Origin: a virus
Virus record (IMG/VR): IMGVR_UViG_3300030099_004837
Span: 1 to 37,272 of that record
Direction: 5' to 3' (one strand)
Length of the DNA stretch: 37,272 nucleotides
Below, in pieces: positions 6,001-28,975 of the stretch. The notes below the pieces were generated by a model that was given only the letters and a program-made list of their open reading frames with translations, made no database searches and was not told where the DNA came from. Every line of letters begins with the position of its first letter. Within the stretch, counting starts at the first letter, position 1. The position numbers and the translations under genes are program-made.

Positions 6001-6652
6001 GATAGTCGTGGTTGGTGATTCCCTAGCACAGAATGAGAGAGTATTCGTTGTTGTGAAAGACCCTGAGAGAATGAAAAATGAAGCAAGTAAAGGAGCGACA
6101 AGCAACATGGTTCGTACACTCCGCCAAGAGATTCCAGGATTGAAGACAAACGCAGAAGCAAGACAACTAGCAAAAACAATCTTAGCGAGAGCTGAGAATG
6201 GTGCGCCTCTCGTGACGCTAGAAGGAGCGTTCAGGTCATCGTCAATACAACCTGGTGAAATCGTGAAGATTGATTTGCCCACTCATGGACTCAGAGGAGA
6301 CTTCGCGGTATTCGAGGCAACTCATAACTATTCCAATATGATGAGTAATTTTGTCGTAGCCCAATATGACAAAGGAATCGAAGGCATACTCTCCGATCTT
6401 CAAGCGGTATCAGGCAACTCATCACCACTAGATGAGTCAGCAGGACAGGTAGTGGATGTTGCCGAAGTGTCGATGTCTGCGGGCATAAACGTGGTAGCAG
6501 TCCACAAGGTATTTGTGCGTAATGTGAACAATACAGGATTCATAATAGGGGCGAAACACACTAATGGAATGGGGAAAATCGGAGTGCGTGACGGGAACAA
6601 GCGGGGGCGACCCATCGGAGCCAGCAAGAGTTTGTATTTTGAGGTGAGATGA
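2..6652 (+). CDS. Giant tail/baseplate structural protein, 5' partial
   Basis: The frame is open from base 2, so the true start lies left of the window; the first in-window ATG is at 77 and gives 2191 residues. Between about 2800 and 4230 there are roughly six Gly-rich repeats of the form GxGYTxxPxxxxxGG (for example NAGTGYTFP, NGGSGYTSLP, SAGSGFTTAP), a pattern common in marine phage tail or fibre proteins. The C-terminal part, from about 5820 to 6390, resembles phage baseplate hub (gpD/XkdQ-like) C-termini: a segment rich in EARQLAKTILARA, then LEGAFRSSSIQPGEIVKI, then a short domain ending near VVAQYDKG. It is inferred to be a virion tail-tip or baseplate component, perhaps carrying host-binding modules. 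It ends EVR, the codons of which (GAGGTGAGA) form the ribosome-binding site of the next gene, and its TGA overlaps that gene's ATG. Virion role is likely; the exact position in the particle is uncertain. Confidence 0.8.
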   Translation, partial: NTRIDPTTGEEITGPSTTDGKLTPNMQIQLPDPSEIPGEVFVRSGHDRIQAYSNLTWGMGGLTAPDPRRPGVAEASGEASQFDTHDRMLIFHVQRLLHPDMATKQGLTPHTTAGAVPSGTTRLFSAHRITDHAERGSVLTQTNNGTATGYPYPHHRIRFARQGHSFVTPMTHRGTPAAMRRQLHRSHGSSYSLLFEAETENKHHVFGSARSTNSSTVFELDTLEVKNESGYRANGSFSSDGVPLSEQDGFRLPDVKAVFSSVTPRTDIDYLVAPGQEQTETIGAGHLVRRAAPSRTTTTNSGPTRLTFANALSGGSRYNTSSEAITNGFMIGDYALAGGRPIAPVIDVGSTNYFVLGLEEGVAVPRSGTELATVPPLLCHDPEYLNLAALTPGGSGGITATNGDFALLDKDNTGTGCVPDAFLCHWLAEYNHPALLGTSREHYLTFRYRESGMPRALNYPPTRGLYLRNHSNPTTTAQAENALPFERLYITQWLQNYGYNGLNAGGHGNIVGLKSANSVLMGHTTVREPQGTLRILTEYENVRHTRGEGIGDGINPERTGVTISYDTDTDSVAFTSYVSVVDSMVAYDYSRRLPVRAWGFRTSSDALDMLAGDPNEHQSANQPVYGKGRFDGGIHDTMNKIPNASTHGDSWMFPSDYNGVERTMPIGLVLTAHTAEATPFSSVIRRSNTKPLPSEQPIGMGLTLGMDSAGLIKPTALPAGVWQPKTDPNKGANEPLKAIPMNKGSDPFIDLTQYTGSNTYAQSTSPSAVSSTQFGVSGGFHHLRGNALHTNASAIDHSNTSNVHYPTTGWGIGKHSNATITSLTPIPLSEISDHRQIQSRTEPRLGFVIQTESERQTNKNIQYSILSTKAASLHSDLIVGQHFPVMPSWSVNTKFTTHNMTVNPSSPSSQTITNPYTLPSWSPDTKDDKGDGGAAVASLSITNAGTGYTFPSGTLGFSGGGGGTGFSGTYTTSTTVADGNIANGVGQYSGGNTQTFTGVTISGGGGSGAAASYVLSNDGKPISNTISIGNGGSGFNSNTVSLTIGQPNASHNSVQATATATIGFGATISNPTSQEHEIDISGTNVNTLTLDGDHQPTLNALRGDYSFGSTLAVNEDISAWPSSGTLYLQDGLTSAFITYSGKNTSGGVGNHTFTISESSHGRGFNFLSGSTVFDLNPNPQNADQTNRLIPLPPIPASTLTMTINQTSPAAQTPATVRIGYERDSTNGKYYVRAGSDAYHISNAGAGFTSGGTKTITLKLNGQSAYAGGNTIGFANSGNVVADVSAATTNGTIVSITVNNQGDGYTSVPSVSAPGGTGVSLTAALASHTATRTLTDIVVTNGGSGYTSLPTMTVPTTHLTGSANAVTAVLGSTGPIVSVSISSAGSGFTTAPTIVPSGGGNNADITATVQLPINPPVLNAAKTHAKDAWTVRGSADLPPWGGTYILRKTYLNRSEEGTLTTDVFGTEGNATTSNQKRKSIDYFVRPVRPLKLFGFASDLLQDGWTHGARSSLGDADTEFQPFTRDNRYGVFESDMEQTLGTLQFISTAEGRFEMTWPDANELDSVFHLLPSASMLQFFKSDAVRKTVDGEFNPEIEARYSQTTHPGGGESLHQSEARYRAEGTGVSGDFVKQTTPDGVTHTHMDTAMRLYPQFEVTRHVSNNVFLKDASMLPTSGTLFIVGKGKMTYTGKTRNKLTGVTNNTGVGDLTGSILRFTTETSPSTLADIRSLTLPHLVSPTFIDNSIVMAKQESALWNRFDTASSTVKPTTLSFRGLLEYDPADFFMINQRPILIENGKTSAQIKTTSPSITAIRFDGKTVSSSHFPPYLFDQTGFSLRIAGVETDELSTFLQFRNIESDSLTDAGLTQGPILLGQLGFVGIRTSDATLTLLNDAGADLASFNVTPTNALLSKDRETSSTLDAHPSLRLISDHSSVFTARKTRGLNIMEIIRNLSQIDGKQLVNERNGSLVYSSDSFNGRGATLGVGSGIRSLVVSKMFDSPNEIVVVGDSLAQNERVFVVVKDPERMKNEASKGATSNMVRTLRQEIPGLKTNAEARQLAKTILARAENGAPLVTLEGAFRSSSIQPGEIVKIDLPTHGLRGDFAVFEATHNYSNMMSNFVVAQYDKGIEGILSDLQAVSGNSSPLDESAGQVVDVAEVSMSAGINVVAVHKVFVRNVNNTGFIIGAKHTNGMGKIGVRDGNKRGRPIGASKSLYFEVR

Positions 6653-9992: not shown

Positions 9993-10667
9993 TTACTCCT
10001 CCTCGTAGTTGGCATCTCTAACGATGTCGCATGGGATTGACACAATCCTATCCGTGCGCTCATCGACAATGCGAATCGTTTCTCTGTTATTGACAAGAGC
10101 ATAGAGCTCCGCAATCAGTTCGGCCTCTGCCGCTAGTGTCCTCATGACATTGCGAGCCAAACCCTGTCGCCATTCGGTGAGCAGGGCGATTGGCTTCAAC
10201 ATGAATGATAGATGAGGGATGGCAGTCTGCTTTCTGTAATTGGTCGATGCCAGCATACGCAAGTCGTACCTTCGACCATGACTTTCATAGTGCTTGGCAG
10301 AGGCATCGAAGACTATCTTGGCTAGGTCGGTGTGAGGCACGGATGCGAAGTGAGGATACTGAGACTTCAACAACGGCATATCAAACTTGGATGATCCATA
10401 GCCAATCAATTTCTTATCTGTCATGTCATGTGATTGCAGGTCACTCAAGTCATACGTCTTGGTGCTCTTGTCCTTTATCATCATCATGTGAACCTCATCA
10501 ACAAACAGACTCATCTGTTTGCCGTCATAGAATGCAACTCCATCTAGGCTAAATTCATCCGGTTTAGTCCATCCTGTGGGCAAGTCGCCCGCATCAGTAG
10601 CAGAGAATGCCTTGAACGAAACGATGCCGTTCTGCTTCATCCAATCGCCTATTTTCCGCATGGTCAC
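9993..10667 (-). CDS. DEDD/RNase H-fold exonuclease-like protein, possibly inactive
   Basis: A 224-residue protein whose ATG overlaps the helicase-like gene's stop (ATGA). The segment LIGYGSSKFDMPLLKSQY (about residues 88-105) matches the Exo II block of DEDD 3'-5' exonucleases, where a conserved Asp follows Phe. It is followed by HTDLAKIVFDA and RYDLRMLA, then PIALLTEWRQG and AAEAELIAELYAL, corresponding to the final helix where active enzymes carry Y/H..D. The usual first motif (DxE) is not clear, and the last acidic position seems replaced by Glu, so activity is doubtful. It could proofread or bind ends during replication. It ends in EEE, coding for GAGGAGGAG. Confidence 0.5.
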   Translation of the reverse strand: MTMRKIGDWMKQNGIVSFKAFSATDAGDLPTGWTKPDEFSLDGVAFYDGKQMSLFVDEVHMMMIKDKSTKTYDLSDLQSHDMTDKKLIGYGSSKFDMPLLKSQYPHFASVPHTDLAKIVFDASAKHYESHGRRYDLRMLASTNYRKQTAIPHLSFMLKPIALLTEWRQGLARNVMRTLAAEAELIAELYALVNNRETIRIVDERTDRIVSIPCDIVRDANYEEE

Positions 10668-12118
10668 AACTCCAATGAGATGAATGCATTCTTACCTTCT
10701 GCCACTCTTACTGCCAACTTGGCTTTCATCATGTCATCGAGTCTTCTTCTTGCAGTCTTAGTGCTGACTCCGTTGATGGTCGAATATGCCTTTTCCAAGT
10801 CACTCTTCCTGACGACTTCCCTCTGAGTCCTTTCATGCACTATCCTCTTGCACTTACCGTATGCTTCTCTCCAAGCCCTAATATCTGCCTGTCTCTTCTT
10901 ACCGACCTTCAAGTCCTGCTTCTGTTCTAGCCAAATGATTAGATTGTGTAGGTTGTCGTAAATCATCTCGCTTGCCATCTGGATGTGTTCTGATGTGACA
11001 ACGGTTGAACGCATGGTAGCGGCGATAAGATTGCCGAAGATCATAGTGTAATTCTCTATGTTCGGCAGGAACCCGATTGCCGTTTCTCTGATGTTGTCAT
11101 CTTGGATACCATAGACTAGAGAGTAGTAGTCATCGACTGCCGATAAGAGTGCAACGTGGTAGTTTGGCCCAGGATTGAATATCTCATATGCGTGAACCTG
11201 AGCAAGGGTTTCCTTCTCTTCATCTGATAGTGCCTCGTACTCTTCACTCGTCAGTCCGGCAGCACCCAACAGTCTTCCCTTGACCTCATCACGAATGCCC
11301 TTTATCTCGTCTGCTATGTTTTCGTATGACCACATCCTCTCAGGCACGGGCTTGTAAGCTCCTGATACTCTGTGCTCGCTAGTGGTCTGCCTAGTCTCAG
11401 TCGTTATGTCGTTTTGGAAGAGATACACTCTTTGGAAGAAACCCTTGTCGAGAACGTGAGTCATGATGTCTTTTGGCGGGTATGTCGTTGCCCATAGTGA
11501 AACACCCGAGGGCGTGTGAACGGATGCCCCCTTCAAGTGATTGACAAGCACGTTGGTTTCGCTACCGATAGGGGCCATCGCCTGTTGTAAGAAAAGAATC
11601 TTATCGGAGAAGTATGCTTTCTTGTCATTCAAGAGGATGCTCGCTTCATCGAATAGGAGAGTCTTGTATCCGTTTAGAAGCCCAGGTACAATTTCGTACT
11701 CAACTGCACCTGTTGGCTTTCCGGTCTTAGGATCTGTCACCTTTATCTCTTGAGTCGTACCTATCATCTTAGCATCGGAACCCGCGCTGAACTTCTCCGT
11801 GTCTATGCCAACTAGCTTGAGAATCTTAGCCATGAATTCGTATGCGATTGACTTACCCGATCTTGCTGATTGAATCCAAAAGACATGGAGTCTGCAATCA
11901 ATGAATGCTCCATGTATGGGGATGCGGACATAGGGTGCTAGGCTTGCGGCTAGAATGTAATAGTAGGAGAGCAACCCTGCGTACTCGTTGAAGAAACTGA
12001 CCGTGCTAAACCTCTCAACATATTGTCTGAGAAACTTGCTACCATCATATGGACTCGTGACTACTGAATAGTCATACCACTTCCTCGTAGTGTCTGCTTG
12101 GCTCTTTGCTATAACCAT
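10664..12118 (-). CDS. Replicative helicase-like P-loop ATPase with C-terminal winged helix
   Basis: A 484-residue ATPase. Walker A is QSARSGKS (residues 83-90), Walker B is LLFDEA (154-159), a sensor-1-like strand is VSLWATTYP (206-214), and an arginine-finger candidate is GFFQR (226-230). This order resembles the DUF3987/SF3-like helicases used by plasmids and viruses, and is also loosely MCM-like. The C-terminal 80 residues contain KSDLEKAYSTINGVSTKTAR, a winged-helix-like unit suited to DNA binding. It lies between XPF and the exonuclease-like gene and downstream of the primase, so it is likely the viral replicative helicase. It begins one base after the XPF stop. Family assignment is moderate, the ATPase call strong. 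Confidence 0.75.
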   Translation of the reverse strand: MVIAKSQADTTRKWYDYSVVTSPYDGSKFLRQYVERFSTVSFFNEYAGLLSYYYILAASLAPYVRIPIHGAFIDCRLHVFWIQSARSGKSIAYEFMAKILKLVGIDTEKFSAGSDAKMIGTTQEIKVTDPKTGKPTGAVEYEIVPGLLNGYKTLLFDEASILLNDKKAYFSDKILFLQQAMAPIGSETNVLVNHLKGASVHTPSGVSLWATTYPPKDIMTHVLDKGFFQRVYLFQNDITTETRQTTSEHRVSGAYKPVPERMWSYENIADEIKGIRDEVKGRLLGAAGLTSEEYEALSDEEKETLAQVHAYEIFNPGPNYHVALLSAVDDYYSLVYGIQDDNIRETAIGFLPNIENYTMIFGNLIAATMRSTVVTSEHIQMASEMIYDNLHNLIIWLEQKQDLKVGKKRQADIRAWREAYGKCKRIVHERTQREVVRKSDLEKAYSTINGVSTKTARRRLDDMMKAKLAVRVAEGKNAFISLEL

Positions 12119-12119
12119 C

Positions 12120-12821
12120 TCAAGCCCTCTTTAGTTTCACCTTTTCATCCACAATCGGCTCCTCGCTGATGAAGCAGTTGAGGATTTTTGATGCGGTAAT
12201 TTTTCCAATGCCAGGCATAGTTTGTAATTCCTTCGGAGTTAGTGATGTGATTTCGCTGATTGAACCATACTCTTCGAGCAACGCCTTCGCCACTCCCTCA
12301 CTACAACCGACTGTCCTTAGCACATCGACTCGCCGATCATAGGATGCGGTCTTACGCATGAGCCTATACTCTGACGACTTGCCTAATGTGCCGTGCTTTT
12401 CAAATCGCTTTGCAATCACTCTTGCCGCCTCGGATGCAGTAGTGAATGACATAATGCTAATGTCGTAGTCCGTATGAAACCGTGCTAGTGAACCCGTGAA
12501 TTCGTTGAATATCTTTGCAAAAGCAATTCTTCTTCCTCCCTTTCTAGCTCTTGATATGTAGGAGTCAATAGTTCCGTGAATCATTAGTATCGGTTGATCG
12601 TAATTGTCATCTAAATTCTGCAATTGCTTATCGAGATGCCCACTATACAGGCTACCCATGTAGTCATGAATCGTCTTAGCCTCTATACCGACATTGCCAA
12701 AGGCATAGTCAGTTATCATGTTCTCTTTGATGACATAGTGTAGGTCTTTGGCTTCGAGATACTTGATGACTAGATGCTCCAAGCCCGAACGCTCTCTGTG
12801 GTCTATGAACATCGTACTCAT
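12120..12821 (-). CDS. XPF/ERCC4-type structure-specific nuclease
   Basis: A 233-residue protein. The ATG at 12821 overlaps the upstream microprotein stop (ATGA) and is preferred to a GTG at 12830. The N-terminal ERCC4 nuclease domain has DHRE (residues 7-10), TDYAFGN (38-44) and IEAKTIHDY (46-54). The last aligns with the VERKxxxD active site, keeping Glu and Lys but replacing Arg with Ala. SLYSGHLDKQL follows as in Hef and XPF proteins. The C-terminal region (about 165-220) holds tandem helix-hairpin-helix motifs, including LTPKELQTMPGIGKITASKI, which bind branched DNA. This domain order is the archaeal XPF arrangement without a helicase. It probably cuts forks, flaps or recombination intermediates. 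Confidence 0.88.
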   Translation of the reverse strand: MSTMFIDHRERSGLEHLVIKYLEAKDLHYVIKENMITDYAFGNVGIEAKTIHDYMGSLYSGHLDKQLQNLDDNYDQPILMIHGTIDSYISRARKGGRRIAFAKIFNEFTGSLARFHTDYDISIMSFTTASEAARVIAKRFEKHGTLGKSSEYRLMRKTASYDRRVDVLRTVGCSEGVAKALLEEYGSISEITSLTPKELQTMPGIGKITASKILNCFISEEPIVDEKVKLKRA

Positions 12822-12919
12822 CTGACCCACTCCGGTATCCTTCCCTTACAATCCATGCAGATTCCATATCGGTGATGCCATGCGGCCTTGTTGAGACACC
12901 TGCACACTCCTCTCGCCAT
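12818..12919 (-). CDS. Cys-rich microprotein (33 aa)
   Basis: A 33-residue ORF with a strong ribosome-binding site (GGGAGGGAG) about 7 bases before its ATG; it ends in an ATGA overlap with the XPF start. The protein has CRC near residue 6 and CMDCKG near residue 22, with HH between them, giving a plausible single zinc site. It fills what would otherwise be an unexplained gap between two coupled genes. Function unknown. Confidence 0.6.
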   Translation of the reverse strand: MARGVCRCLNKAAWHHRYGICMDCKGRIPEWVR

Positions 12920-13245: not shown

Positions 13246-14346
13246 TCATTCGACACCCTTCCCATCATAGAATGCACACTTGCCAACACACAGTCCTTGA
13301 CGAAATATGGTGGGACAGGTAGGAGAGCAATATTGTCTGTTGGATGCATGAACCAATTGCTCTTGGGTAATTTTCGGATTGTAATCCGCCCATTCCAAAT
13401 CTGCAATGAATTCATGTGCCTTTGCAACTGCATCCTGGGGGCTAACATCGCTTGAGGATCTTGGCCGTGCAAAATTATGAAAGAAGTCCAATAGGTACAT
13501 GGACAGGTATGAACGAGATAGGTGAGGGGGGTTATCACCTTTGGTGCAAGCGGCTGCGTCTAAACAAGGAAGTATGGGGATTCCAGATATACTGCGTGAC
13601 GACACCGAAATTTCCGCCGCCTCGAATTTCCCAAAAAATCCTGTCATACCTGACAGGTATGGGTTCCCAGGGTCACTCTTGACAATTTCAATCTCCAAGC
13701 CCTTGTCTCCCCGTATCTTCATGCCACCCATTGGGTTCTTTGCTTGTTCAACGACATGATGCCAACCTAGCTCCAAATCTTCTTTGCTGATTGGGATGCT
13801 CCATAGCTCCCGTTTAGTGTTGTATGTGTTTGGTATCCCGATGTGCCTATCGGGCCTGAAACTCACGACAGGATCTATCGTGACCAAATCCATATCGCCT
13901 ATCCACTTGTTCACTAATGCCCTTCCCGAGAATAACAAATCATTCATCTCGTTGGTAGGCAAATCATACACCTTGTCCAACATAATCCAAATGTGATAGC
14001 CACCACCACTCATCCAGGCCGCATGACGGACACTCTCATCCAAGAGATGTGTCACCAATCGAAGCGCATCCTCTGTGCATCTCTGTCCCGCCTTATCACC
14101 TTCAAGTTGCAACAAATCATTGGCTCTGCCCTTATCCATATCTATGACGAAATGAGGAATGATTGCCGTGCTATACTCACACCTGTTCCCGTTTGGTTTC
14201 AATTTGTTGAACCCATAAACTGTAGTCGTGAGTTTGTCCTTACCATTTGTGACATTCACATAATGCTGGAGCTGACTCATGCTCCTGATTACCTTTCTAG
14301 CCTTCATGTCAATCTCACGAGGGAAGTGATTGAACAAATGCGCCAT
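13246..14346 (-). CDS. Archaeo-eukaryotic primase with PriL-like Fe-S region
   Basis: A 366-residue protein combining both primase functions. The N-terminal AEP catalytic domain has FVIDMDKG (residues 66-73, metal-binding Asp69 and Asp71), SGGGYHIW (113-120, His118), and IDPVVSFRPDRHIGIPNTYN (157-176), matching motif III and the following Arg/Asn block. The C-terminal third resembles the large-subunit PriL domain. It has PCLDAAAC (260-267), then NPPHLSRSYLSMYLL (272-286), and a cluster Cys340, Cys344, Cys353, Cys357, suitable for an iron-sulfur or zinc cluster. Eukaryotes and most archaea have these on two polypeptides. It should synthesise primers for viral replication. It starts 8 bases after the C5 methyltransferase stop with GAGGGA upstream. 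Confidence 0.87.
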   Translation of the reverse strand: MAHLFNHFPREIDMKARKVIRSMSQLQHYVNVTNGKDKLTTTVYGFNKLKPNGNRCEYSTAIIPHFVIDMDKGRANDLLQLEGDKAGQRCTEDALRLVTHLLDESVRHAAWMSGGGYHIWIMLDKVYDLPTNEMNDLLFSGRALVNKWIGDMDLVTIDPVVSFRPDRHIGIPNTYNTKRELWSIPISKEDLELGWHHVVEQAKNPMGGMKIRGDKGLEIEIVKSDPGNPYLSGMTGFFGKFEAAEISVSSRSISGIPILPCLDAAACTKGDNPPHLSRSYLSMYLLDFFHNFARPRSSSDVSPQDAVAKAHEFIADLEWADYNPKITQEQLVHASNRQYCSPTCPTIFRQGLCVGKCAFYDGKGVE

Positions 14347-14354
14347 AGTATCCC

Positions 14355-15749
14355 TCAGAAATCAAACAGGGATTTTTGCTCGCTTGTACGGGAATCTTCT
14401 CTCTCATCCAAACCATTCACCAAATCATCGACTACCTGTATCCCCTCTCCAATCCACCTCATTACCGGAACCGCCATTGAATTGCCCAATGCCTTATACC
14501 GTGGGCCATCGGGACAATCCTCGGGTGCTTTTCCCCTCCAAGATATTTGTGTATAATTATCTGGAAACCCTTGCAAACGCTCGCATTCCAAAGGTGTTAA
14601 TCGGCGCACGGCCATGTTTGTGTGTTTGACTGCCAAACCACCTTCTGCAGTCAAAGGCGCACCAGAGTTTTTCTCATCAAAATTAGTTTGAGAAACATTC
14701 TTCCAATCAAAACCAATTGTTTTTTGAGCAACGGCAGGTGGACTTCCTGCACCACTATTTGTTCCGACTTTGAGTGTGGGACTGACATCCTCGAATACGT
14801 TGGAGTTAGCACCAAAAGTGGAATCGAAACTATGCACGGTTGTTTGTGCAATGATCGGCTCTCTGATTATTTGAGTTGTTCGTGTATCACCCAAATCAAA
14901 GGTGTTGAGAGTATTGGTCACGTCATCCTTTACCCATGTTTCACAGTCGGTATTGGTCTGTGCTCTGCGTGATTTACGAAATATTCCCCTTTCGGTTGGA
15001 GGAAAATCATCAGCAGGTTTAGTTTCGGGTATTAGGTGTCCTGATGCGGCGGTTTGGACAGTAAGTTTGTTGCCGCCACATTCTTTGTCCAATGTTCCTG
15101 TAATCTTGGGGATTACTCTTCTTCCAGATTCGCCTTGTTGAGAAGTGCTTGTTCCAATGTATTCGGTAATTGCTTTCCTCTGCGCCTTGCTCTCCTTAGA
15201 ATGCCCCTGCAAGCTTTCTCGCTCAAATAATACCGATGCGGCACTTCTCCAATCTCCTCCAATATGTCCGACAACGAAGACTCTACGTCTTCGCTGCGGG
15301 ACTCCGAAGAATTGAGAGTCCAAAACTCGGTAGGCGAACCCATACCCGATTTTTGCCACTTCTCCGAGGAAGATTCCAAAATCCCTTCCTCCGTCAGACG
15401 ACAGTAATCCTGGGACATTTTCAAAGACGAACCACGTTGGTTGAATTTCCGCAACAGATCTGATGAATTCGAGGGCCAAGTTGCCACGAGGGTCATCCAT
15501 TCCAAGTCTTTTTCCTGCAACCGAGAAGGATTGACACGGGCTTCCTCCGACAACGACTTCTGCTTTTCCTTTGTATTCACTCCAATCAACTCCTTCCACG
15601 TTTCCTAAGTTTGGCACATCGGGATAGTGATGTGCGAGTACGGCAGAGGGAAAAGCATCAATGTCTGCAAAGGCCATAGGTTCCCATCCCATGTGATGCC
15701 ATGCCTGGGATGCGGCTTCGATACCTGCGAATAGGCTGACATATCTCAT
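14355..15749 (-). CDS. dcm: DNA cytosine-C5 methyltransferase
   Basis: A 464-residue full-length C5 methyltransferase (PF00145). Motif I is LFAGIEA (residues 6-12), the catalytic PCQ loop is GGSPCQSFS (68-76, Cys72), motif VI is ENV (110-112), and motif VIII is QRRRRVFVVG (152-161). A long target-recognition region (about 170-390) is rich in Thr, Asn and Ser. Motifs IX-X are RRLTPLECERLQGFPDN and YKALGNSMAVP near the C-terminus. It methylates the C5 position of cytosine in a short DNA site that cannot be read from sequence. With the N4/N6 enzyme it makes two modification specificities without visible endonucleases, which suggests anti-restriction. Its start overlaps the nuclease gene upstream by 4 bases (ATGA). 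Confidence 0.95.
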   Translation of the reverse strand: MRYVSLFAGIEAASQAWHHMGWEPMAFADIDAFPSAVLAHHYPDVPNLGNVEGVDWSEYKGKAEVVVGGSPCQSFSVAGKRLGMDDPRGNLALEFIRSVAEIQPTWFVFENVPGLLSSDGGRDFGIFLGEVAKIGYGFAYRVLDSQFFGVPQRRRRVFVVGHIGGDWRSAASVLFERESLQGHSKESKAQRKAITEYIGTSTSQQGESGRRVIPKITGTLDKECGGNKLTVQTAASGHLIPETKPADDFPPTERGIFRKSRRAQTNTDCETWVKDDVTNTLNTFDLGDTRTTQIIREPIIAQTTVHSFDSTFGANSNVFEDVSPTLKVGTNSGAGSPPAVAQKTIGFDWKNVSQTNFDEKNSGAPLTAEGGLAVKHTNMAVRRLTPLECERLQGFPDNYTQISWRGKAPEDCPDGPRYKALGNSMAVPVMRWIGEGIQVVDDLVNGLDEREDSRTSEQKSLFDF

Positions 15750-16768
15750 CCACTCTCATCTCCCTCAGACAGGCTTTCACTTTTGAACACTCTAGCGTTA
15801 TACGGCATCAAAGCCTTCTCGTAGCGAGGGCAGAATCCCTTCAATGCACACCAGGGTTCGCAGATGAAATTGAGAGAATCCATAGGCAGCAACGGGAATT
15901 GAAGCCCATCAGTATCGCCTCTGTAATTGCGATGGTATCTGAGGAGATCGCTGACTGTATCGTACATCAATCCCATCTCTCTCACTTGCACGGGTTCCTT
16001 GCCTCGGAAGACTCCATCTCCTCCTGTGTGATCCCATCCCCACCAAGCCACTCTTGCATCCGTGAAGTTTGCCTCCCCTATGACATTCCCCTGTTGGTCA
16101 TACAAACGGTTATCGCAATTCTTCATTAGGAATACATAGAATGCCAATTCTTTTCGCATAGACTCCCACTTCTTCTTCTTGTGTTCTCTGAACACACCAG
16201 TCTTGAGCTCGTGAATGTGATACTCTCCATCTTGATTGATGAAGAGTCTGTCAATCATTCCGCTAATGTGAATCAATTGGCCTTCATACTCAATGACTCC
16301 ATGCAACGTCACTTCGTTTCCTACGGGAAGGAAGTAATCCAGATTGCAATCTAATGCACGTTCCGCCTCTACCCATAGATACTTGCGTATGTGTTCCTCT
16401 TCTCCCAACTGATAAGATTCAATATTTGGTATTAGGGACAGAAAGTATCCATACACATCCTCAACCTCTTGAAGTCCTCTCACGGAGTCTAAATCCACGT
16501 CATAATAGAACTGCTCAACGGCATTGTGAACATTTGTCCCTCGAATCATGTTGTCATTCTCAGGCTCTTTGACTCCGAGTGGATACTTGATGAAATACTG
16601 TTGAGCGCAGAAGTCACTCTGACCAACAGATGACTTGGTTAGTTTCAGCAAGTGCTTATCCTCAACCCCAGGATGATAACCGTATGAAGAAACGAAGTCC
16701 TCATACCCCTCAACGGGGATTGGATATGCCTTACGAGGGAATCTCAGTTGCATGACCACGACAATCAC
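15746..16768 (-). CDS. Cas4/RecB-like PD-(D/E)XK nuclease with Fe-S cysteines
   Basis: A 340-residue nuclease of the PDDEXK_1/Cas4 type. Features in order: SSVGQSDFC (residues 46-54, first cluster Cys54), RGTNVHNAVEQF (76-87, His81), SGMIDR (169-174, Asp173), HELKTG (186-191, catalytic Glu187 and Lys189), ELAFYVF helix, and CEPWCALKGFC (Cys303, Cys307, Cys313). One early and three late cysteines are the Cas4/AddB 4Fe-4S arrangement. It probably resects DNA ends, working with the RecA-like ATPase immediately upstream. The GTG at 16768 overlaps the upstream TGA (GTGA); an ATG at 16753 is an alternative start. No CRISPR context, so not a CRISPR Cas4. Confidence 0.87.
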   Translation of the reverse strand: MIVVVMQLRFPRKAYPIPVEGYEDFVSSYGYHPGVEDKHLLKLTKSSVGQSDFCAQQYFIKYPLGVKEPENDNMIRGTNVHNAVEQFYYDVDLDSVRGLQEVEDVYGYFLSLIPNIESYQLGEEEHIRKYLWVEAERALDCNLDYFLPVGNEVTLHGVIEYEGQLIHISGMIDRLFINQDGEYHIHELKTGVFREHKKKKWESMRKELAFYVFLMKNCDNRLYDQQGNVIGEANFTDARVAWWGWDHTGGDGVFRGKEPVQVREMGLMYDTVSDLLRYHRNYRGDTDGLQFPLLPMDSLNFICEPWCALKGFCPRYEKALMPYNARVFKSESLSEGDESG

Positions 16769-18126
16769 TCATCGTTTGCACCTGTCTGAGCATCATCTGT
16801 CTCGAATCTTCCATACTTGAGACTAGGCCATCCATACCACTTCGATCCGCCCTTCTCCTCGGGTGCTCTCTCAAACACGGTATGTCGGCCAGGCAAGTCT
16901 AGTGACACACGATTCTTGGATAGAACGGCGAACGCCTTCTCAACGCCCGTCAGTCTCCCTAGTTCATCCCTCTCCCTATCCACATACATGAGAACAACTT
17001 GCTGCATATCTCCGTCACTCTCCTTGAGCCATCCTGGTATCTCTTGACCCTCTAGCTCATTGCCTTCTCGGTCATAGGTTGGCTTCATATGCGCTATCGT
17101 ATAGACATGGACTCCACCGACCATGAGGGCTTGCCAACAATGCGATGCGGCAGCATATCGCGTCTTACGAACACCCCAATTGAATCGTGTGACTCTCTTG
17201 GTTGCCACTCCTATCGCATCGTTCCCTAATCCTAAGTCGCTAATCTTCATGCATAATCTGCATATCAATTCCCACTTGTCAGAACCATCGAACAAGAATG
17301 TCTTGAGATACGGACTTGGCATCTTCCCGTGCTCCTTGAAGTATGCTTGTTGCTTTTCCATCTGTTCAACCGCTAGGTTGCATAGTAAGAGTGTCCTCTC
17401 GTATGTCGCCATGTTGTCTATTTGGTCGCTCGCACTCTCTTTGCCCTTCATATAGACATAGGGATCGAGGATTATCAGATTCTTGAGATTGTCATGATGC
17501 GCGTGTTTGGATGTCCTGCCACCGCCATCGAAATCAACGTGCCATACCTCTGCACCGTTTGCTATCTCTTCCTCAGTTAGTGAGTCATGGATGATGCCCG
17601 TCTTACCACAGCCTGGTGGGCCAGCAATTCCGCAGAACACGAAAGCATCTAGCCCTTCTAGGAATTCGTTGCCCTCTCTTTGGTCATCTATCTCAGACCA
17701 CATTGGGTTGTCGCTTCTCGTAGCATCAACGACCTGCTTTAGAGGAGTTGCAGGAACCGTGTGATTGGTGTTTGCCCCTTCTGAATTTGAGAGGACATGA
17801 ACATCGAGTTTCTTTGGCATTATCTTCTCTCCGGCGAAGACATCCTCTTTCTTTGGCTTCTCCCAAGGCAACCCCTGCTTAGGCTTGTTCATGTTAGCGG
17901 GTTCTCTTTGGTCTGCTATCGCCTTATTGATCTCCCATTCTTGGGCTTCTCTGTCTTGAATCTCCTCCAATGACATACCCTCTGTGTCGAAGTTTGCCTC
18001 TTGTTGCTCCTCGCCCCATACATTCTTCTTGGGTGTAGGCTTTGGTGCGGGTCTAGGAGAGCCGTCTGCCTCTCCTGTGATTGTGTCCTTCTTCTGAAAC
18101 CAATCGAATCCTGAACCGTCAGACAT
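16765..18126 (-). CDS. RecA/Sak4-like P-loop ATPase
   Basis: A 453-residue protein. The ATG at 18126 follows the upstream TAG by one base with CAGGAG in the preceding gene's last codons; longer in-frame starts lie inside that gene and are rejected. Residues 1-160 are charged and low in complexity, probably a flexible partner-binding arm. The ATPase core begins with Walker A GIAGPPGCGKT (166-176), then WHVDFDGGGR (195-204), and Walker B FLFDGSDKW (277-285). A basic patch VATKRVTRFNWGVRKTRY and the strand VGGVHVYTIAHMK follow. This is the single-domain RecA fold found in phage Sak4 and AAA_24 proteins, often beside an SSB. It is inferred to be a viral recombinase or annealing ATPase. Confidence 0.75.
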   Translation of the reverse strand: MSDGSGFDWFQKKDTITGEADGSPRPAPKPTPKKNVWGEEQQEANFDTEGMSLEEIQDREAQEWEINKAIADQREPANMNKPKQGLPWEKPKKEDVFAGEKIMPKKLDVHVLSNSEGANTNHTVPATPLKQVVDATRSDNPMWSEIDDQREGNEFLEGLDAFVFCGIAGPPGCGKTGIIHDSLTEEEIANGAEVWHVDFDGGGRTSKHAHHDNLKNLIILDPYVYMKGKESASDQIDNMATYERTLLLCNLAVEQMEKQQAYFKEHGKMPSPYLKTFLFDGSDKWELICRLCMKISDLGLGNDAIGVATKRVTRFNWGVRKTRYAAASHCWQALMVGGVHVYTIAHMKPTYDREGNELEGQEIPGWLKESDGDMQQVVLMYVDRERDELGRLTGVEKAFAVLSKNRVSLDLPGRHTVFERAPEEKGGSKWYGWPSLKYGRFETDDAQTGANDE

Positions 18127-18127
18127 T

Positions 18128-19459
18128 CTAGTCACTCCTGAATCCGCCAAGCGAACCCAGGTCGTTTGCCTCGTCAGGAGTAGCGGCGGCAATGTGACTC
18201 CTGTTTGGGATAGCATAGATGTTGAGTGCGTCAGCATCTAGCATCTGTTCCCCTGTGGTGTTGTTCTCCCATGTCCTAGTCCTGATGACTGCGAATACCT
18301 GCGTTCCTGCAGTGTAGTCGAACCACCCATCTCCCTGATTCACTTGGAAGGCATGGAAGTCATCCAATAGCTTCTTCGAGACAGACAGATAGATTGCGGC
18401 GTTTGAGTCATCCCTGCGTATTGCTTGGCTGAACAACGACATCCTGTGTTGTGAACCTCCCTCTGCCGAAAGGCCGTATATCTTCTCATCCCTTCCTGCA
18501 TGATCCATGTAGTCCACCGTTCCCCTGATTGTGAAAATAGGGCCGACATCTCTTCCAGATTGAAGTGTTGTCTTGTTGTCTTCGTGGTAGTCGTGAACGT
18601 CACCCAAGTCAGCAACGTAGTTTCCGAATTGAACGAACATCTGCGAAGGATCGAATATCTCCGAAGCGGCTTCTCTCATGTCCTCGGGGAGCCATGATAG
18701 TCCGTAAGTCGGTGATAGGTTGTTTGCCTTAAGGATAGGCGTGGTCTTGTCATACCATGACACATCCTCTTCTGCTTGGAACATGATTGGCTGATTCATC
18801 CGCAAGTCCAAGTCTGCTGCATCGAAAGAGCACTCTAATACGATAGGAATGCCACTTCCAAAACCATTCTGCCTGAATTCATCCTTCTTTGCGAAGATGC
18901 CCCACCACTCTCTCTTGTATGAGAAGGCGGGCTTTGGGCCTCTTGGGCCGCCAAGCAAGCAGATGTAGTATTGTTCTCCTGGCACGGCGATTGCCCATGT
19001 TGGAATCTCACTAGCTTCTCCTTCCTCAACATGGATTTCTCTATCTGATGCATCGAACACTCTCCATGCACCATCGTGGTGTGCTCCTCTTCCTATGGGA
19101 ACCGTTCGATCATCTTGGTAGGGCTGAATGCCATTCTTCAACACATAGTCTATGCCTTGAAACTTCAATTGGTCTATCGCCTTCTCCCTCTGCCTACCCA
19201 TTAGGTCGGTAGTCCCGTGATAGCCTAGTATCATACCAACGAATGTCGTACCTGAGCCACCTGCATTACTACGCTTGATTGTTGCCTCAAAACCGGACAA
19301 CACATACTCCGTAGTATCGGGGTCAGCGTTTGATATGTCGCCCTTGTGGACTTCATATTCGCCTGGTTGTGCCTTTTTCCACCACTCATGTATCTTATCT
19401 AGCGTTTCTTGGGTTTCCCAACCCATCATCTCATTTATTCTTACAATTCCATCTGCCAT
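18128..19459 (-). CDS. Putative OB-fold ssDNA-binding protein
   Basis: A 443-residue protein with AAGGAG upstream of its ATG. No clear family is recognised. Two stretches have OB-fold-like strand patterns: about residues 65-100 (SGTTFVGMILGYHGT) and about 300-400 (PIFTIRGTVDYMDH ... MSLFSQAI ... VFAVIRTRTWEN). Aromatic residues are frequent, as in ssDNA-binding surfaces. It is immediately upstream of, and translationally close to, the RecA-like ATPase and the Cas4-like nuclease, the usual place for an SSB or RPA-like protein in viral recombination modules. The assignment is mostly contextual. A promoter-like element lies 48 bases before the start. Confidence 0.45.
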   Translation of the reverse strand: MADGIVRINEMMGWETQETLDKIHEWWKKAQPGEYEVHKGDISNADPDTTEYVLSGFEATIKRSNAGGSGTTFVGMILGYHGTTDLMGRQREKAIDQLKFQGIDYVLKNGIQPYQDDRTVPIGRGAHHDGAWRVFDASDREIHVEEGEASEIPTWAIAVPGEQYYICLLGGPRGPKPAFSYKREWWGIFAKKDEFRQNGFGSGIPIVLECSFDAADLDLRMNQPIMFQAEEDVSWYDKTTPILKANNLSPTYGLSWLPEDMREAASEIFDPSQMFVQFGNYVADLGDVHDYHEDNKTTLQSGRDVGPIFTIRGTVDYMDHAGRDEKIYGLSAEGGSQHRMSLFSQAIRRDDSNAAIYLSVSKKLLDDFHAFQVNQGDGWFDYTAGTQVFAVIRTRTWENNTTGEQMLDADALNIYAIPNRSHIAAATPDEANDLGSLGGFRSD

Positions 19460-19472
19460 ATCTCATTTCTCC

Positions 19473-19877
19473 TTATAGGGATGTTCTGCGTGTATCGTGT
19501 AGGTTATGAACACTCTCATAATTGTGTAAGATTTCAAGGACTTTGATTACCTCATCATGTGTTCGTGGTTGGCGAATCTCTCCATTCAGGTCTTTGACCA
19601 TCCTAAGTCCTTTGTCAGTCGATGATAGATCTTCGAGTCCCTTGATAATATTGAGGATTCGATTAATCTCCTCAGTTTCAGAATACAACAGCCTTACAGG
19701 CAAGCCGTGTGATTCTAACGCTCTCTGTATTCCAGGCTTCATCACAGTGAACCATAGCTCCGGCCTAATCTGATAACCACATTTTCTCTCATTTGTGCGA
19801 ACGCATTTGATGTCACCTCTGATGAGAGAAGCTAGGACTATGACATCACGATCATCCTGGTTGAGAATCCCCGACAT
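19473..19877 (-). CDS. Small helical protein, unknown function
   Basis: A 134-residue protein that overlaps the ligase-like gene's 3' end by 26 bases, with GGAGATAGG before its ATG. The N-terminal half looks like a small alpha/beta or winged-helix unit (DDRDVIVLASLIRGDIKC ... GYQIRPELWFTVMKPGIQRA). The C-terminal half is predicted coil or helix (EEINRILNIIKGLEDL ... HDEVIKVLEILHNYESV). It may be a DNA-binding regulator, but no specific family is recognised. A promoter-like element is embedded in its last 15 codons. Confidence 0.65.
   Translation of the reverse strand: MSGILNQDDRDVIVLASLIRGDIKCVRTNERKCGYQIRPELWFTVMKPGIQRALESHGLPVRLLYSETEEINRILNIIKGLEDLSSTDKGLRMVKDLNGEIRQPRTHDEVIKVLEILHNYESVHNLHDTRRTSL
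19504..19517 (-). promoter_or_regulatory. Promoter-like element, copy b
   Basis: The minus strand reads GAGAGTGTTCATAA inside the last codons of the 134-residue gene, with its centre 48 bases before the ssDNA-binding-protein-like ATG. An AAGGAG ribosome-binding site lies between, so this transcript would have a leader of about 20 bases. The exact 14-base match with copy d argues against chance. Confidence 0.5.
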
Positions 19878-21291
19878 ATCCTATCTCCTCCACTCCCATT
19901 GTATCTGCTATTCCCGCCGAGCCATCAATCTCAACAATATTCCCATTCACATAAGCACCGATGTCACCCCATCCGCTTGCGAGTATATCCACTTTGACAA
20001 ACAAAGGGGTATCGACATTGATTGCTTCGCCTGGGAGCCACTTCCACTTTGCACAATATCTTGAGAAATCACCATCTTTCAGATTGCCGCTTGTCATCTC
20101 CGTGATGGGGAAGTAATCGAATCCATCTCTCACACCTAACTTCCACATCACATACATCTGCGGCCCTTGAGATAGATTTTGAACCACTCTTCCTGATAAA
20201 ACTCGCATAACTCTATGCTTAGACACAGGATTTAGCAAGGCTACCTCCTCAATTGTATTCTCGTAAGTCAGTATGCCTCTAGCGTTACGAAGAAGGAAGG
20301 GGTGTCCTGTATCCTGATACTTCTCGCTATGGTATGGCCTGTCTAAAGCAACCATAGGTTTGATTGCCCACTCGGGTACGTTCTCGAATCTCTGTCGTCT
20401 TGATGCTAATGTTGCTTGAGGATCATCGGGGTTCAACCAATCAATCAGGAGCAGAGGATTATCTCTCATCTCCGCGTAGTCACACAAGTATATTCCAGGT
20501 TCCAACTTGATTGATTTAGCCCACTTCGCAATCCACTCATCATCATCAGGCAAACCATATCCTGATGCCGTGTACCCGATAGTATTGTTTCCATGATGAA
20601 TCGTGACCCATGCACCCTCGACAGTTTCCAACAAGCATTTCGTAAATGCAACAGTCGATGTGGATTCTATCAATGTGGGTGTAGGGATGATGATTGGTTC
20701 GCCTAGCAATGGTCTGACTTGTTTGTAGTCGAACGAGCTGAGTGACAAGTCTCGGACTGTGTTCCCAAGTCCTAAAAGATTCGCTGATGTTCGTATGTGA
20801 TGGAAGGGTTGGTCGTATGCCAAAGCGAGTGCAGACAACACCTCTCTTCTTCTGACAGGAGCAGATCTCACACTCAGGCGCATGAACAAAGGATGCAAGT
20901 CTCTCTTGTTTATCCTCTCAAACAGGGGTCTAATCAACCAGGCTCGCACTTCATTATCCGTTGCGGCAAGTATCTTTGAGATTCTATCGACCACACTCTT
21001 ACCTGTCCCTACTGTGTTCTCAGTCTCAGATAGTTGCACAAGGAGATGTATGGGGTCTGGATTCTCCTCAACCTCTCCTGGGTATGCATCAGTAAGTAAG
21101 AAGTATATCTCTCGGAAGTCCTCATCACTCAAGCGACTCCCATTGAGGCTTCTTGGATAGAAGAATGAGATGACAGTCCAAGGATCATCCATAGATGCTC
21201 GAAGATTGTTCGCCACTATCTCTGACCTGTTTCTGAGTTTGTATGCAGACATCACTCGCCAGGATTCAGAGAGGGAACGATATGATAGCAT
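19852..21291 (-). CDS. DNA-ligase-like protein lacking the catalytic lysine (pseudo-ligase)
   Basis: A 479-residue protein with the ATP-dependent DNA ligase architecture. Residues about 100-190 match the N-terminal DNA-binding domain: LFMRLSVRSAPVRRREVLSA followed by ALAYDQPFHHIRTSANLLGL aligns with the usual 'lltGelRiGv..vl.Alala' block. RPLLGEP (193-199) aligns with the RPMLAE lead-in to the nucleotidyltransferase domain. Motif I, normally KxDGER, here reads TVEGAW (224-229) before VTIHH, so the adenylated Lys and the Arg are gone. The motif III and IV equivalents (IYLCDYAEM, GHPFLLRN) also lack the expected Glu and Lys. An OB-like C-terminal part follows. It is inferred to be a nick- or DNA-binding structural derivative, not a ligase. 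Start by TGATG overlap; ATG at 21252 is an alternative. Confidence 0.6.
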   Translation of the reverse strand: MLSYRSLSESWRVMSAYKLRNRSEIVANNLRASMDDPWTVISFFYPRSLNGSRLSDEDFREIYFLLTDAYPGEVEENPDPIHLLVQLSETENTVGTGKSVVDRISKILAATDNEVRAWLIRPLFERINKRDLHPLFMRLSVRSAPVRRREVLSALALAYDQPFHHIRTSANLLGLGNTVRDLSLSSFDYKQVRPLLGEPIIIPTPTLIESTSTVAFTKCLLETVEGAWVTIHHGNNTIGYTASGYGLPDDDEWIAKWAKSIKLEPGIYLCDYAEMRDNPLLLIDWLNPDDPQATLASRRQRFENVPEWAIKPMVALDRPYHSEKYQDTGHPFLLRNARGILTYENTIEEVALLNPVSKHRVMRVLSGRVVQNLSQGPQMYVMWKLGVRDGFDYFPITEMTSGNLKDGDFSRYCAKWKWLPGEAINVDTPLFVKVDILASGWGDIGAYVNGNIVEIDGSAGIADTMGVEEIGYVGDSQPG

Positions 21292-21569
21292 CACTCTTCC
21301 TCATCCTTGTCCTTCCAATCGGAATCATCTCTGTAAATCATTTGAAGAAAACGAAAGCCATCGTCTGTTGAAACAGTTAGCTTGTCATCCCAAACCATTG
21401 TTTTCGGCTTGTCTCGCTGAAGAAATGTGAAGTAAATCTTACCGCGTATATCTTCTGTTCGCTCAGGCACATAATGCCAATGCCCCACGTTCAAATGTAA
21501 TCGAACAGAAGGGGGCAAATCTTTCCAATTGTGAATGCGACTCAACCAAGGCCAAACTCTTCGAGCCAT
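21291..21569 (-). CDS. Small Trp-rich basic-to-acidic protein, unknown
   Basis: A 92-residue protein. The ATG at 21569, two bases after the upstream TAA and with GAGGAAGAG before it, is preferred to an in-frame ATG 15 bases further up. The N-terminus is basic and Trp-rich (ARRVWPWLSRIHNWKDLP), the middle forms strands (GKIYFTFLQRDKPKTMVWDD) and the end is strongly acidic (KDKDEEE). No family recognised. The EEE tail codons contain the ribosome-binding site for the ligase-like gene, which starts at the TGATG overlap. Confidence 0.65.
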   Translation of the reverse strand: MARRVWPWLSRIHNWKDLPPSVRLHLNVGHWHYVPERTEDIRGKIYFTFLQRDKPKTMVWDDKLTVSTDDGFRFLQMIYRDDSDWKDKDEEE

Positions 21570-21570
21570 A

Positions 21571-21972
21571 TTACTCTTCCTCATCAGTCCAATTACTTAC
21601 TATGTCCTTGTATAGATCCTCATCGACCAAGACATCTAGTATGGCACTCTTGCCCTTGTCCGTCAAGAACCATCTCTTCTTGCCGGATGATGTGGTCATG
21701 GCTTTGACTCTTCGACCATCAAGGAGATCGGCAGATATGTTTTGCAGGAGAGGGATGGATACCTTGTTGCCCGTAGCATTACCCGCGATGTAGCAACAGT
21801 CGAAAGCTAGTGTGAAATAAGAGCGATTGGCAAAGACCCTGACTAAATCCCATATCTGAAAAGCGATGTCACTCACATCCTCATGATTCTCGCAACACTT
21901 TTCACAAATCTTTCCTATCAATCCGTGATGGTAAAACAAAAACTCGTCAAGCGTTTCAAACTTCATATTCAT
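21571..21972 (-). CDS. Small protein with winged-helix-like C-terminus
   Basis: A 133-residue protein with AAGGAGCTAG upstream and a 17-base overlap with the previous gene. Residues about 22-30 have CEKCCE, and a further CC lies near residue 60. The C-terminal half (SADLLDGRRVKAMTTSSG, then KKRWFLTDKGKSAILDVL) resembles a winged-helix recognition helix and wing followed by the 'LTdkG' signature of archaeal transcription regulators. It may be a DNA-binding regulator. It ends in DEEE, whose codons include the next gene's ribosome-binding site. Confidence 0.65.
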   Translation of the reverse strand: MNMKFETLDEFLFYHHGLIGKICEKCCENHEDVSDIAFQIWDLVRVFANRSYFTLAFDCCYIAGNATGNKVSIPLLQNISADLLDGRRVKAMTTSSGKKRWFLTDKGKSAILDVLVDEDLYKDIVSNWTDEEE

Positions 21973-27382: not shown

Positions 27383-28975
27383 TCAACCACCCATCCCCAT
27401 CATTGGGGGGGGCAAGTCTCCGCCGGATGGCTTCATACTGATTACATCATCAATCCTGAGAATCAGGGTCGAAGCCTCGACTGCACTAGATATTGCGGTT
27501 CTGATTAGTTTTCTCGGTTCGATTACCTTCAACTTCTTCATGTTCTCAATTTTACCATCTATTGAAACTCCGTCATGGATGCCCGAGCTCTTGAGTGAAA
27601 GAAGCGTATCAACAGGATCCGCCCCTGAGTTTTCTGCCAAAGTCCAGGGGATTGATTCGAGAGCAGAGGCAAAGGACTCAACTGCCATAGCCTGTCGTCC
27701 AGGTGCTTCGTGCGCTCTCTCTCGTAGCACTCTCGCTAGGTGTGCATAAGCAGAACCGCCACCCGCTACCATTATCTTACTCTCATCGGACAATGCCACC
27801 ACTCCGATAACATCGTCAAAGCATCTCTCTAACTCTGAGACTGTGTGACCTGTGGCCCCACGAAGAATAGCCGTCACGCTTTTCGCACCTTCATTGGTGA
27901 CGCAGACGCAGATATGCTCTCCGAATTTCTCTTCTGAAATCAAGGAAGCAGAACCTAATTGTTCGGGTTTCAACTCTTTGATTTCGCTAACTAATTTTGC
28001 GCCCGTAATCCTACGCAGGGCTTCCATGTCGCTGTTCTTGACTCGCTTAGTGGCGAGAATATTGTATTGAGCAAGATAGTGTGCTGCGAGTGGGTCAATA
28101 TCCTTTTGACAGAATACTGCATTTGCACCACTTTTGGAAATCTCTTGGCACATGACTTTGATTGCCTCTTCTTCGCGGGCTAGAAACGCCTCTAAGATGC
28201 CAGGATCATTGATGTTGAGTTTGCTCTCAATCTTGGTTTCCTTTGGTTCCAATGATGTCTTGAGAAGCAAGACGTTTGCATCCACTATGCTTTGAGGCAT
28301 CTCAGAATGGACTCTTTCTTTCTCAACCACAAGGCCCGATAGCAATTCGCTTTGATCGTAAGTGCCACCCTCGAATGTTGAGACTTTGATGTTGTCTAAA
28401 TTGATATTGCCCTCATCATCTCTAACTGCATCCAAAGCCCGCACAGATATGTCAGAGAGCGTATCAATCGCTGATTCTGCTGACTTGCCATTAATAGATG
28501 TCCGTGCCGCATCTGCTAATTCATCCCCACTCAGTTCCCAACCCATCTCGTCTAGCGTTTCCAGAACAATGGATAATGCGAAGTGATACCCCTTGACGAG
28601 AATGGCTGGATGGACTTGCTTCTCAATCAACTCCTTCGCCTGTTCCAACAAAGCCCCTGATATTACTGCGGTAGTCGTGGTTCCATCGTGGCATTGAGAA
28701 TCTTGAGTCTTGGAGATTTCAATTATGATTTTGGCTGCAGGATGCTCGGCATGAAGCAACTCAAGAATCGTCACTCCATCATTGGTGATGGTGACTTCAC
28801 CACCACCACCGACCAGGAGCTTGTCAAACCCTAGTGGCCCTAACGTGGAACGCACAGATTCGGCAACGGCTCTTGCGGCCATTATGTTGTTCTCCTGGGC
28901 GTTTCTTCCACTCCTATTTTTTGCCCCTTCTTGTAGTATATAGATTGGTTCTCCATTTGGCCCCTGTGCCATCAT
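27383..28975 (-). CDS. Group II chaperonin (thermosome subunit)
   Basis: A 530-residue, full-length group II chaperonin (PF00118). VTITNDGVTIL (residues 61-71), HPAAKIIIEISKTQDS and the nucleotide loop CHDGTTTTAVISG (95-107) match the equatorial domain; most thermosomes have GDGTT where this has HDGTT. The catalytic Asp region is CFDD (385-388), followed by VAGGGSAYAHLARVL (403-417). The C-terminus PPPMMGMGG is a typical Gly/Met tail into the folding chamber. It should form an ATP-driven double ring, alone or mixed with host subunits, to fold viral proteins. Thermosome genes are known from metagenomic viruses of marine archaea. It starts at ATGATG, 29 bases after a degenerate promoter-like element. 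Confidence 0.96.
   Translation of the reverse strand: MMAQGPNGEPIYILQEGAKNRSGRNAQENNIMAARAVAESVRSTLGPLGFDKLLVGGGGEVTITNDGVTILELLHAEHPAAKIIIEISKTQDSQCHDGTTTTAVISGALLEQAKELIEKQVHPAILVKGYHFALSIVLETLDEMGWELSGDELADAARTSINGKSAESAIDTLSDISVRALDAVRDDEGNINLDNIKVSTFEGGTYDQSELLSGLVVEKERVHSEMPQSIVDANVLLLKTSLEPKETKIESKLNINDPGILEAFLAREEEAIKVMCQEISKSGANAVFCQKDIDPLAAHYLAQYNILATKRVKNSDMEALRRITGAKLVSEIKELKPEQLGSASLISEEKFGEHICVCVTNEGAKSVTAILRGATGHTVSELERCFDDVIGVVALSDESKIMVAGGGSAYAHLARVLRERAHEAPGRQAMAVESFASALESIPWTLAENSGADPVDTLLSLKSSGIHDGVSIDGKIENMKKLKVIEPRKLIRTAISSAVEASTLILRIDDVISMKPSGGDLPPPMMGMGG

Follow-up and report, generated by a model that had tools for sequence, protein, structure and literature searches.

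A ligase-like protein lacking the catalytic residues of DNA ligases in a conserved viral replication and recombination operon

The ligase-like gene and its operon

The window, i.e. the whole stretch of DNA that we analyzed, is a 37,272-bp IMG/VR virus record and represents a viral fragment of 37 kb. Positions 19852-21291 of its minus strand hold an open reading frame of 479-480 aa, which we call ligase-like since its product appears to be a catalytically dead, full-length homologue of the archaeal ATP-dependent DNA ligases. The stop codon lies at 19852-19854 and the ATG, at 21291, overlaps the stop codon of the upstream gene (TGATG). An in-frame GTG at 21294 is an alternative start. A small conserved gene of the same operon (21571-21972, minus strand) precedes the ligase-like gene in most loci.

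The next gene, at 19473-19877 on the minus strand, overlaps the 3' end of the ligase-like ORF by 26 bp and encodes a conserved protein of 134 aa that is likely a co-translated partner of the ligase-like protein. It is followed by the gene of a conserved 443-aa protein (18128-19459, minus strand) assigned to PHROG 4477, of unknown function, for which a relative was not found in the PDB and whose role, if we had to guess, would be SSB/OB-like. Then come a P-loop ATPase (16765-18237, minus strand), lacking a match in Pfam and possibly RecA/Sak4-like judging by its motif (Walker A GPPGCGKT), and a Cas4/RecB-like PD-(D/E)XK nuclease (15746-16768, minus strand; PF12705, E 5.7e-14). Further along the same strand are an archaeo-eukaryotic-type primase (13246-14346), an XPF/ERCC4 nuclease with a helix-hairpin-helix (12120-12830; PF02732, E 2.6e-14), and, in the same block, a conserved helicase-like P-loop protein (10664-12118) for which we found no relative in the PDB. 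The primase has weak matches to PriS in its N-terminal part and to PriL in its C-terminal part, which suggests a PriS-PriL fusion. A cytosine methyltransferase is encoded at 14355-15749 (minus strand); its middle is split or variable among relatives and both of its ends are conserved.

Searches with the single sequence of the ligase-like ORF failed to identify any relative in Pfam, PHROGs, the sequences of the PDB, phage records, viral contigs, or genome contigs. The neighboring Cas4-like nuclease, used as a query on viral contigs, revealed 16 related loci, most of which carry the ligase-like ORF at the corresponding position. As the alignments grew, further searches brought the number of loci carrying relatives to 40 and to 62, and later polymerase-based searches provided three further homologues. 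The resulting alignment comprises 53 unique full-length viral homologues, with 27-84% identity to the window protein. One locus (L150) has a distant polymerase and lacks the operon, and in another (L153) the ligase-like gene is absent from the parts that were read.

The operon is nearly invariant. In 70 of 71 loci, the gene of the 134-aa protein comes immediately after the ligase-like gene. That of the 443-aa protein comes next in 66 of 70 loci, and all the 63 loci with enough flanking sequence have the P-loop ATPase. These counts refer to loci and not to independent viruses, some loci being overlapping pieces of one contig. The gene order around the ligase-like gene is kept from 84% down to 27% identity. 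The most divergent relatives belong to a distant clade (L058, L148, L149, and L152), in which the protein of L058 is 27-28% identical to that of the window. This clade has the same core, into which the genes of an RFC-S-like AAA+ ATPase and of a family B polymerase are inserted (L058:12397-18980), and the genes of the 134-aa protein, the 443-aa protein, the P-loop ATPase, and the Cas4-like nuclease still accompany the ligase-like gene. Since RFC-S-like and PolB genes were not detected in the window clade, the ligase-like protein goes with these core genes and not with the polymerase. The XPF nuclease and the primase, which the original prediction had named as partners, are not favored over other genes, because the constant neighbors are those of the core.

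The contigs of related viruses reach 108 kb and encode a portal, a protease, and a major capsid protein (MCP); the Magrovirales are tailed archaeal viruses of about 90-110 kb. The MCP of one relative (G012) matches those of the haloarchaeal tailed viruses HCTV-1, HVTV-1, and HCTV-5, i.e. it is related to the MCP of Druskaviridae. Cpn60-type (thermosome/Cpn60) chaperonin genes were found in 13 of the 17 virus records searched. Among the replication genes expected of Magrovirales, PCNA was not detected in our viruses, and PolB with the RFC-S-like ATPase was found only in the distant clade. In terms of gene content, the MCP, the chaperonin, the ERCC4 nuclease, and the primase point to magrovirus-like viruses of marine archaea, and marine archaea are most likely the hosts of the family. 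The window itself encodes a full-length thermosome (group II chaperonin) at 27383-28975 on the minus strand and, at 77-6652 on the plus strand, a tail or structural protein of 2,191 aa with glycine-rich repeat stretches, which matches several virion families.

Ligase homology and the catalytic motifs

An AlphaFold2 model of the ligase-like protein, built with 43 aligned relatives, has a mean pLDDT of 84.4 and a pTM of 0.63 (a first run with 10 sequences was discarded, its pLDDT being 46). The best matches of this model in the PDB, identified with Foldseek, are the archaeal ATP-dependent DNA ligases of Thermococcus, Pyrococcus, Archaeoglobus, and Sulfolobus (E about 1e-18 to 1e-15), after which rank the human ligases 1, 4, and 3. 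The alignments cover the entire protein and all three domains. Whole-protein TM-scores against ligases are just 0.3-0.4, with large rmsd, presumably because the domains are oriented differently. Taken singly, parts of the protein fit well: 350 residues superpose on ligase 4 at 5.8 A, and 162 residues on the nucleotidyltransferase domain of human ligase 3 at 2.8 A. The structural match to ligase has a VIA Z of 15-17, and the named top matches in a viral structure library are mostly DNA ligases.

The predicted protein has the order of domains that characterizes ATP-dependent DNA ligases, i.e. a DNA-binding, a nucleotidyltransferase, and an OB domain. The DNA-binding domain (residues 1-195; 20710-21294, minus strand) is all helical in the model and its profile, taken alone, aligns with residues 1-204 of ligases. 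It has a basic loop, RLSVRSAPVRRRE, at the site of TMRTGVAEG in ligases, and its net charge is almost neutral (26 K+R vs 24 D+E). The nucleotidyltransferase-fold domain (residues 196-357; 20224-20709, minus strand) is the one that superposes on human ligase 3, and the assignment of the OB-fold domain (residues 358-480; 19855-20223, minus strand) comes from the model, the structural match, and the profile alignment. In this last domain we saw neither the LRFPR nor the RxDK (motif VI) element of ligases in the merged alignment, which is weak at the C-terminus.

When the PDB was searched with a profile of 24 family members, no relative was found. The comparison of a profile of 50 members with one of 32 archaeal ligases resulted in a probability of 89%, a P of 2e-6, and a score of 57.6 over 417 columns. 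The maximal scores of the controls were 25.5 for 60 column shuffles and 43.0 for 60 block shuffles, and the reversed profile scored 14.5. As the real score is higher than all of these, chance can be excluded. For comparison, the scores of the ligase-like family are 34-58 over about 420 columns, varying with the alignment used, and those of 13 further families of genes in the window are 9.6-23.7, with 10-60 columns aligned to ligases. The P value also depends on the alignment, ranging from 2e-6 to 2.5e-3, and the claim of homology hence leans on the structure as well. With only three ligases of Thermococcales the comparison was weak (P 0.02); the signal appeared only when both profiles were diverse. 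A separate merge with MAFFT put the motifs in the same register as the profile alignment. The modeled fold and the profiles thus give good support to the view that the ORF encodes a full-length, three-domain homologue of the archaeal/eukaryotic-type ATP-dependent DNA ligases. The order of ligase blocks that had initially been read in the ORF is borne out by the predicted structure and the profile alignment, and the structure resembles ligases, as the original prediction required.

We then compared the catalytic motifs, using as reference the 32 archaeal ligases, in all of which the Lys of motif I, the Phe of motif IIIa, the Glu and Lys of motif IV, and the Trp and both Lys of motif V are invariant. 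The motif I site of the window protein is ETVEGAW (residues 223-229; 20608-20628, minus strand), with T224 (20623-20625) at the position of the catalytic Lys. None of the 53 viral members has a Lys at this position, where I, S, V, T, N, P, E, R, or H occurs instead, and none has a Lys anywhere in residues 222-227. The lack of the motif I Lys, initially noticed in the window alone, is therefore fixed across the family (53/53), and no relative with an intact KxDG was found. The motif IV site is PFLLRN (residues 332-337; 20284-20301, minus strand) where ligases have EGLMAK, and its Glu and Lys are gone in all 53 members. At the motif V site, VALLN (residues 351-355; 20230-20244, minus strand) stands for the WLKIK of ligases: the Trp and Lys are lost, the first Lys being found in no member and the second in a single one (1/53). 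In motif IIIa, which reads LIDW (residues 283-286; 20437-20448, minus strand), the adenine-stacking Phe is replaced by Ile, Val, Leu, or Cys in the viral family, and the Asp (D285) is kept in 53/53, as is the Arg that follows the motif (R299). Motif III has kept its acid, D272 (20479-20481, minus strand), with an Asp or Glu in every member. Hence, the proposal that motifs III and IV both lack their key residues holds for motif IV but not for motif III.

The Gly of motif I (G227) and the subsequent His (H233) are also retained in 53/53, and the invariant or nearly invariant positions of the pocket region are G227, H233, D/E272, D285, R299, K312, and E350. Among these, K312 (20359-20361) is a Lys in all 53 members and has no counterpart in ligases; it may mark a new functional site. 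When set beside the archaeal enzymes of Pyrococcus furiosus (2CFM), Thermococcus (6WBO and 3RR5), and Archaeoglobus (3GDE), the viral protein has in common with them the order and fold of the three domains, colinear over about 417 columns, the motif I Gly and following His, the motif III acid, and the IIIa Asp and Arg. In contrast, it lacks the motif I Lys, the IIIa Phe, the motif IV Glu and Lys, and the motif V Trp and Lys, far fewer residues separate its motifs III and IIIa, and LRFPR and RxDK were not seen.

In covalent nucleotidyltransferases, removal of just the motif I Lys is enough to abolish the first step of ligation. Our alignments offer good support to the idea that the ligase-like protein would be unable to form lysyl-AMP and, for this reason, could not seal nicks. 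For those pairs of relatives whose divergence could be measured, the Nei-Gojobori dN/dS is 0.02-0.08, which excludes a decaying pseudogene. Purifying selection and invariant synteny show that a function was retained, and a new, non-catalytic role is then the natural reading. This is in line with the original idea of a dead ligase kept for a new role.

Possible roles of the ligase-like protein

Given the three-domain fold whose pocket is dead, the basic loop, and the setting within the operon, the ligase-like protein is probably a non-catalytic DNA clamp or docking subunit of ligase fold, involved in viral recombination or replication. The clamp would bind viral duplex DNA that is nicked, gapped, or branched, chiefly via its basic helical and OB domains, and leave the bound DNA unsealed. 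It would serve as a docking subunit for the neighboring 134-aa protein, the 443-aa protein, the P-loop ATPase, and the Cas4-like nuclease, and this docking would take place during viral recombination or replication. We infer all three elements, i.e. DNA binding, the partners, and the holding open of breaks. The fold, the profile match, the loss of residues in 53/53, the low dN/dS, and the kept gene order count in favor of such a clamp; the almost neutral charge of the DNA-binding domain, the LRFPR element that was not seen, and the dependence of P on the alignment count against it. In human ligase 1, the LRFPR element inserts at the nick. Since we did not see it in the viral protein, ligase-like nick recognition may also have been lost.

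Inactivated homologues of other replication enzymes are already known. Searches of the literature for inactive viral ligases found nothing relevant, and a full-length DNA ligase that is inactive throughout a whole viral lineage and is locked in a replication/recombination operon is apparently undescribed. Its study makes the use of a ligase fold as a structural subunit of the replisome directly testable. By analogy, yeast DNA ligase IV (Dnl4), which has a non-catalytic role at DNA breaks, is a precedent for a ligase acting without catalysis, but the inactive form of Dnl4 is a laboratory mutant, whereas the viral family is naturally inactive throughout (PMC3694833).

It is conceivable, though unlikely, that the protein is instead an antagonist, i.e. 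a decoy shaped like a ligase: by sitting on nicks or on a ligase partner (e.g. the clamp), it would keep the host ligase from sealing viral intermediates. A ligase fold kept without catalysis would suit such a decoy, as would the fact that none of 37 virus records has a canonical viral ligase above the cut-off. However, the linkage of the operon is strictly to replication and recombination genes, and not to early anti-host genes. Next comes the idea, also improbable in our eyes, that the pocket of the nucleotidyltransferase domain was taken over for a different ligand or for a reaction that does without a lysyl-AMP intermediate. While the invariant or nearly invariant residues of the pocket listed above argue for this, the base-stacking Phe is gone together with all the Lys of motifs IV and V, except for the second motif V Lys of one member in 53, and several of the kept residues may be structural. 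That the protein is still an active ligase by means of a relocated Lys seems very improbable: K312, invariant in 53/53, would be an obvious candidate, but we know of no relocated motif I Lys in covalent nucleotidyltransferases, and the motif IV Glu and Lys and the motif V Lys are lost as well. Finally, a decaying pseudogene or an assembly artefact, which the missing catalytic residues might bring to mind, can be dismissed given 53 intact homologues from many samples, with dN/dS of 0.02-0.08 and a conserved operon.

Other ligase-like sequences in these viruses

We searched the viruses for an active ligase. The profile PF01068 gave nothing above the cut-off in 37 virus records, in a search where the positive controls matched and where a ligase this divergent could be missed. 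PF01653 gave nothing in 18 virus records (the positive control matched). A 19-member ligase profile also gave nothing in 18 virus records, but it was run without a positive control, so the claim that there is no canonical ligase rests on PF01068 and PF01653. A tblastn match of a canonical ligase beside the Cas4-like gene (E 5e-4) was rejected as a chance match, since it extends across two genes, a methyltransferase being the first, and includes a stop codon.

The weak signals of PF01068 come for the most part from another protein, about 1,110-1,170 aa long (L125:5775-9260, minus strand; also in L126, L127, L128, L130, L131, and L132). In the best-read genome, this protein of ~1,150 aa belongs to the head module and is encoded between the portal and the prohead protease. 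Its ligase-like stretch has a motif I of the type QK[KM]P[EKM]GKR or similar, a IIIa-like VVDLL, a motif IV-like LLIRD, and HPKWV, and its comparison with ligases by hhalign gives a P of 0.0028. Several members have a Lys at the motif I position. As the motif III Glu, the motif IV Lys, and the motif V Lys were not seen, this ligase-like nucleotidyltransferase domain looks degenerate as well.

Magroviruses are said to encode an ATP-dependent DNA ligase (PMC10768690, PMC12999244, PMC10160649), which has been placed beside the prohead protease (PMC7318539). This annotated ligase comes from the same broad virus group (MCP, chaperonin, ERCC4 nuclease, and primase) and has a ligase-like domain, but it is probably a different gene from the ligase-like ORF of the window. 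It probably corresponds to the head-module protein, whose domain looks degenerate, and the published statements of a working magrovirus ligase may thus rest on degenerate homologues. More tentatively, these viruses may lack an active DNA ligase altogether, with degenerate active sites in each of their two ligase-like proteins: the one of the replication block would be a dedicated non-catalytic clamp that keeps nicks or ends open for recombination-dependent replication, and the host would do the sealing. This broader scenario is possible, and we hold it with reservation.

The tailed archaeal virus Halogranum tailed virus 1 has an annotated DNA ligase (R4T9C5), which is the fourth match of the ligase-like protein in the viral structure library. 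Whereas the window ORF was unmatched in sequence searches of phages, R4T9C5 was retrieved by tblastn with a canonical archaeal ligase, at 28.7% identity.
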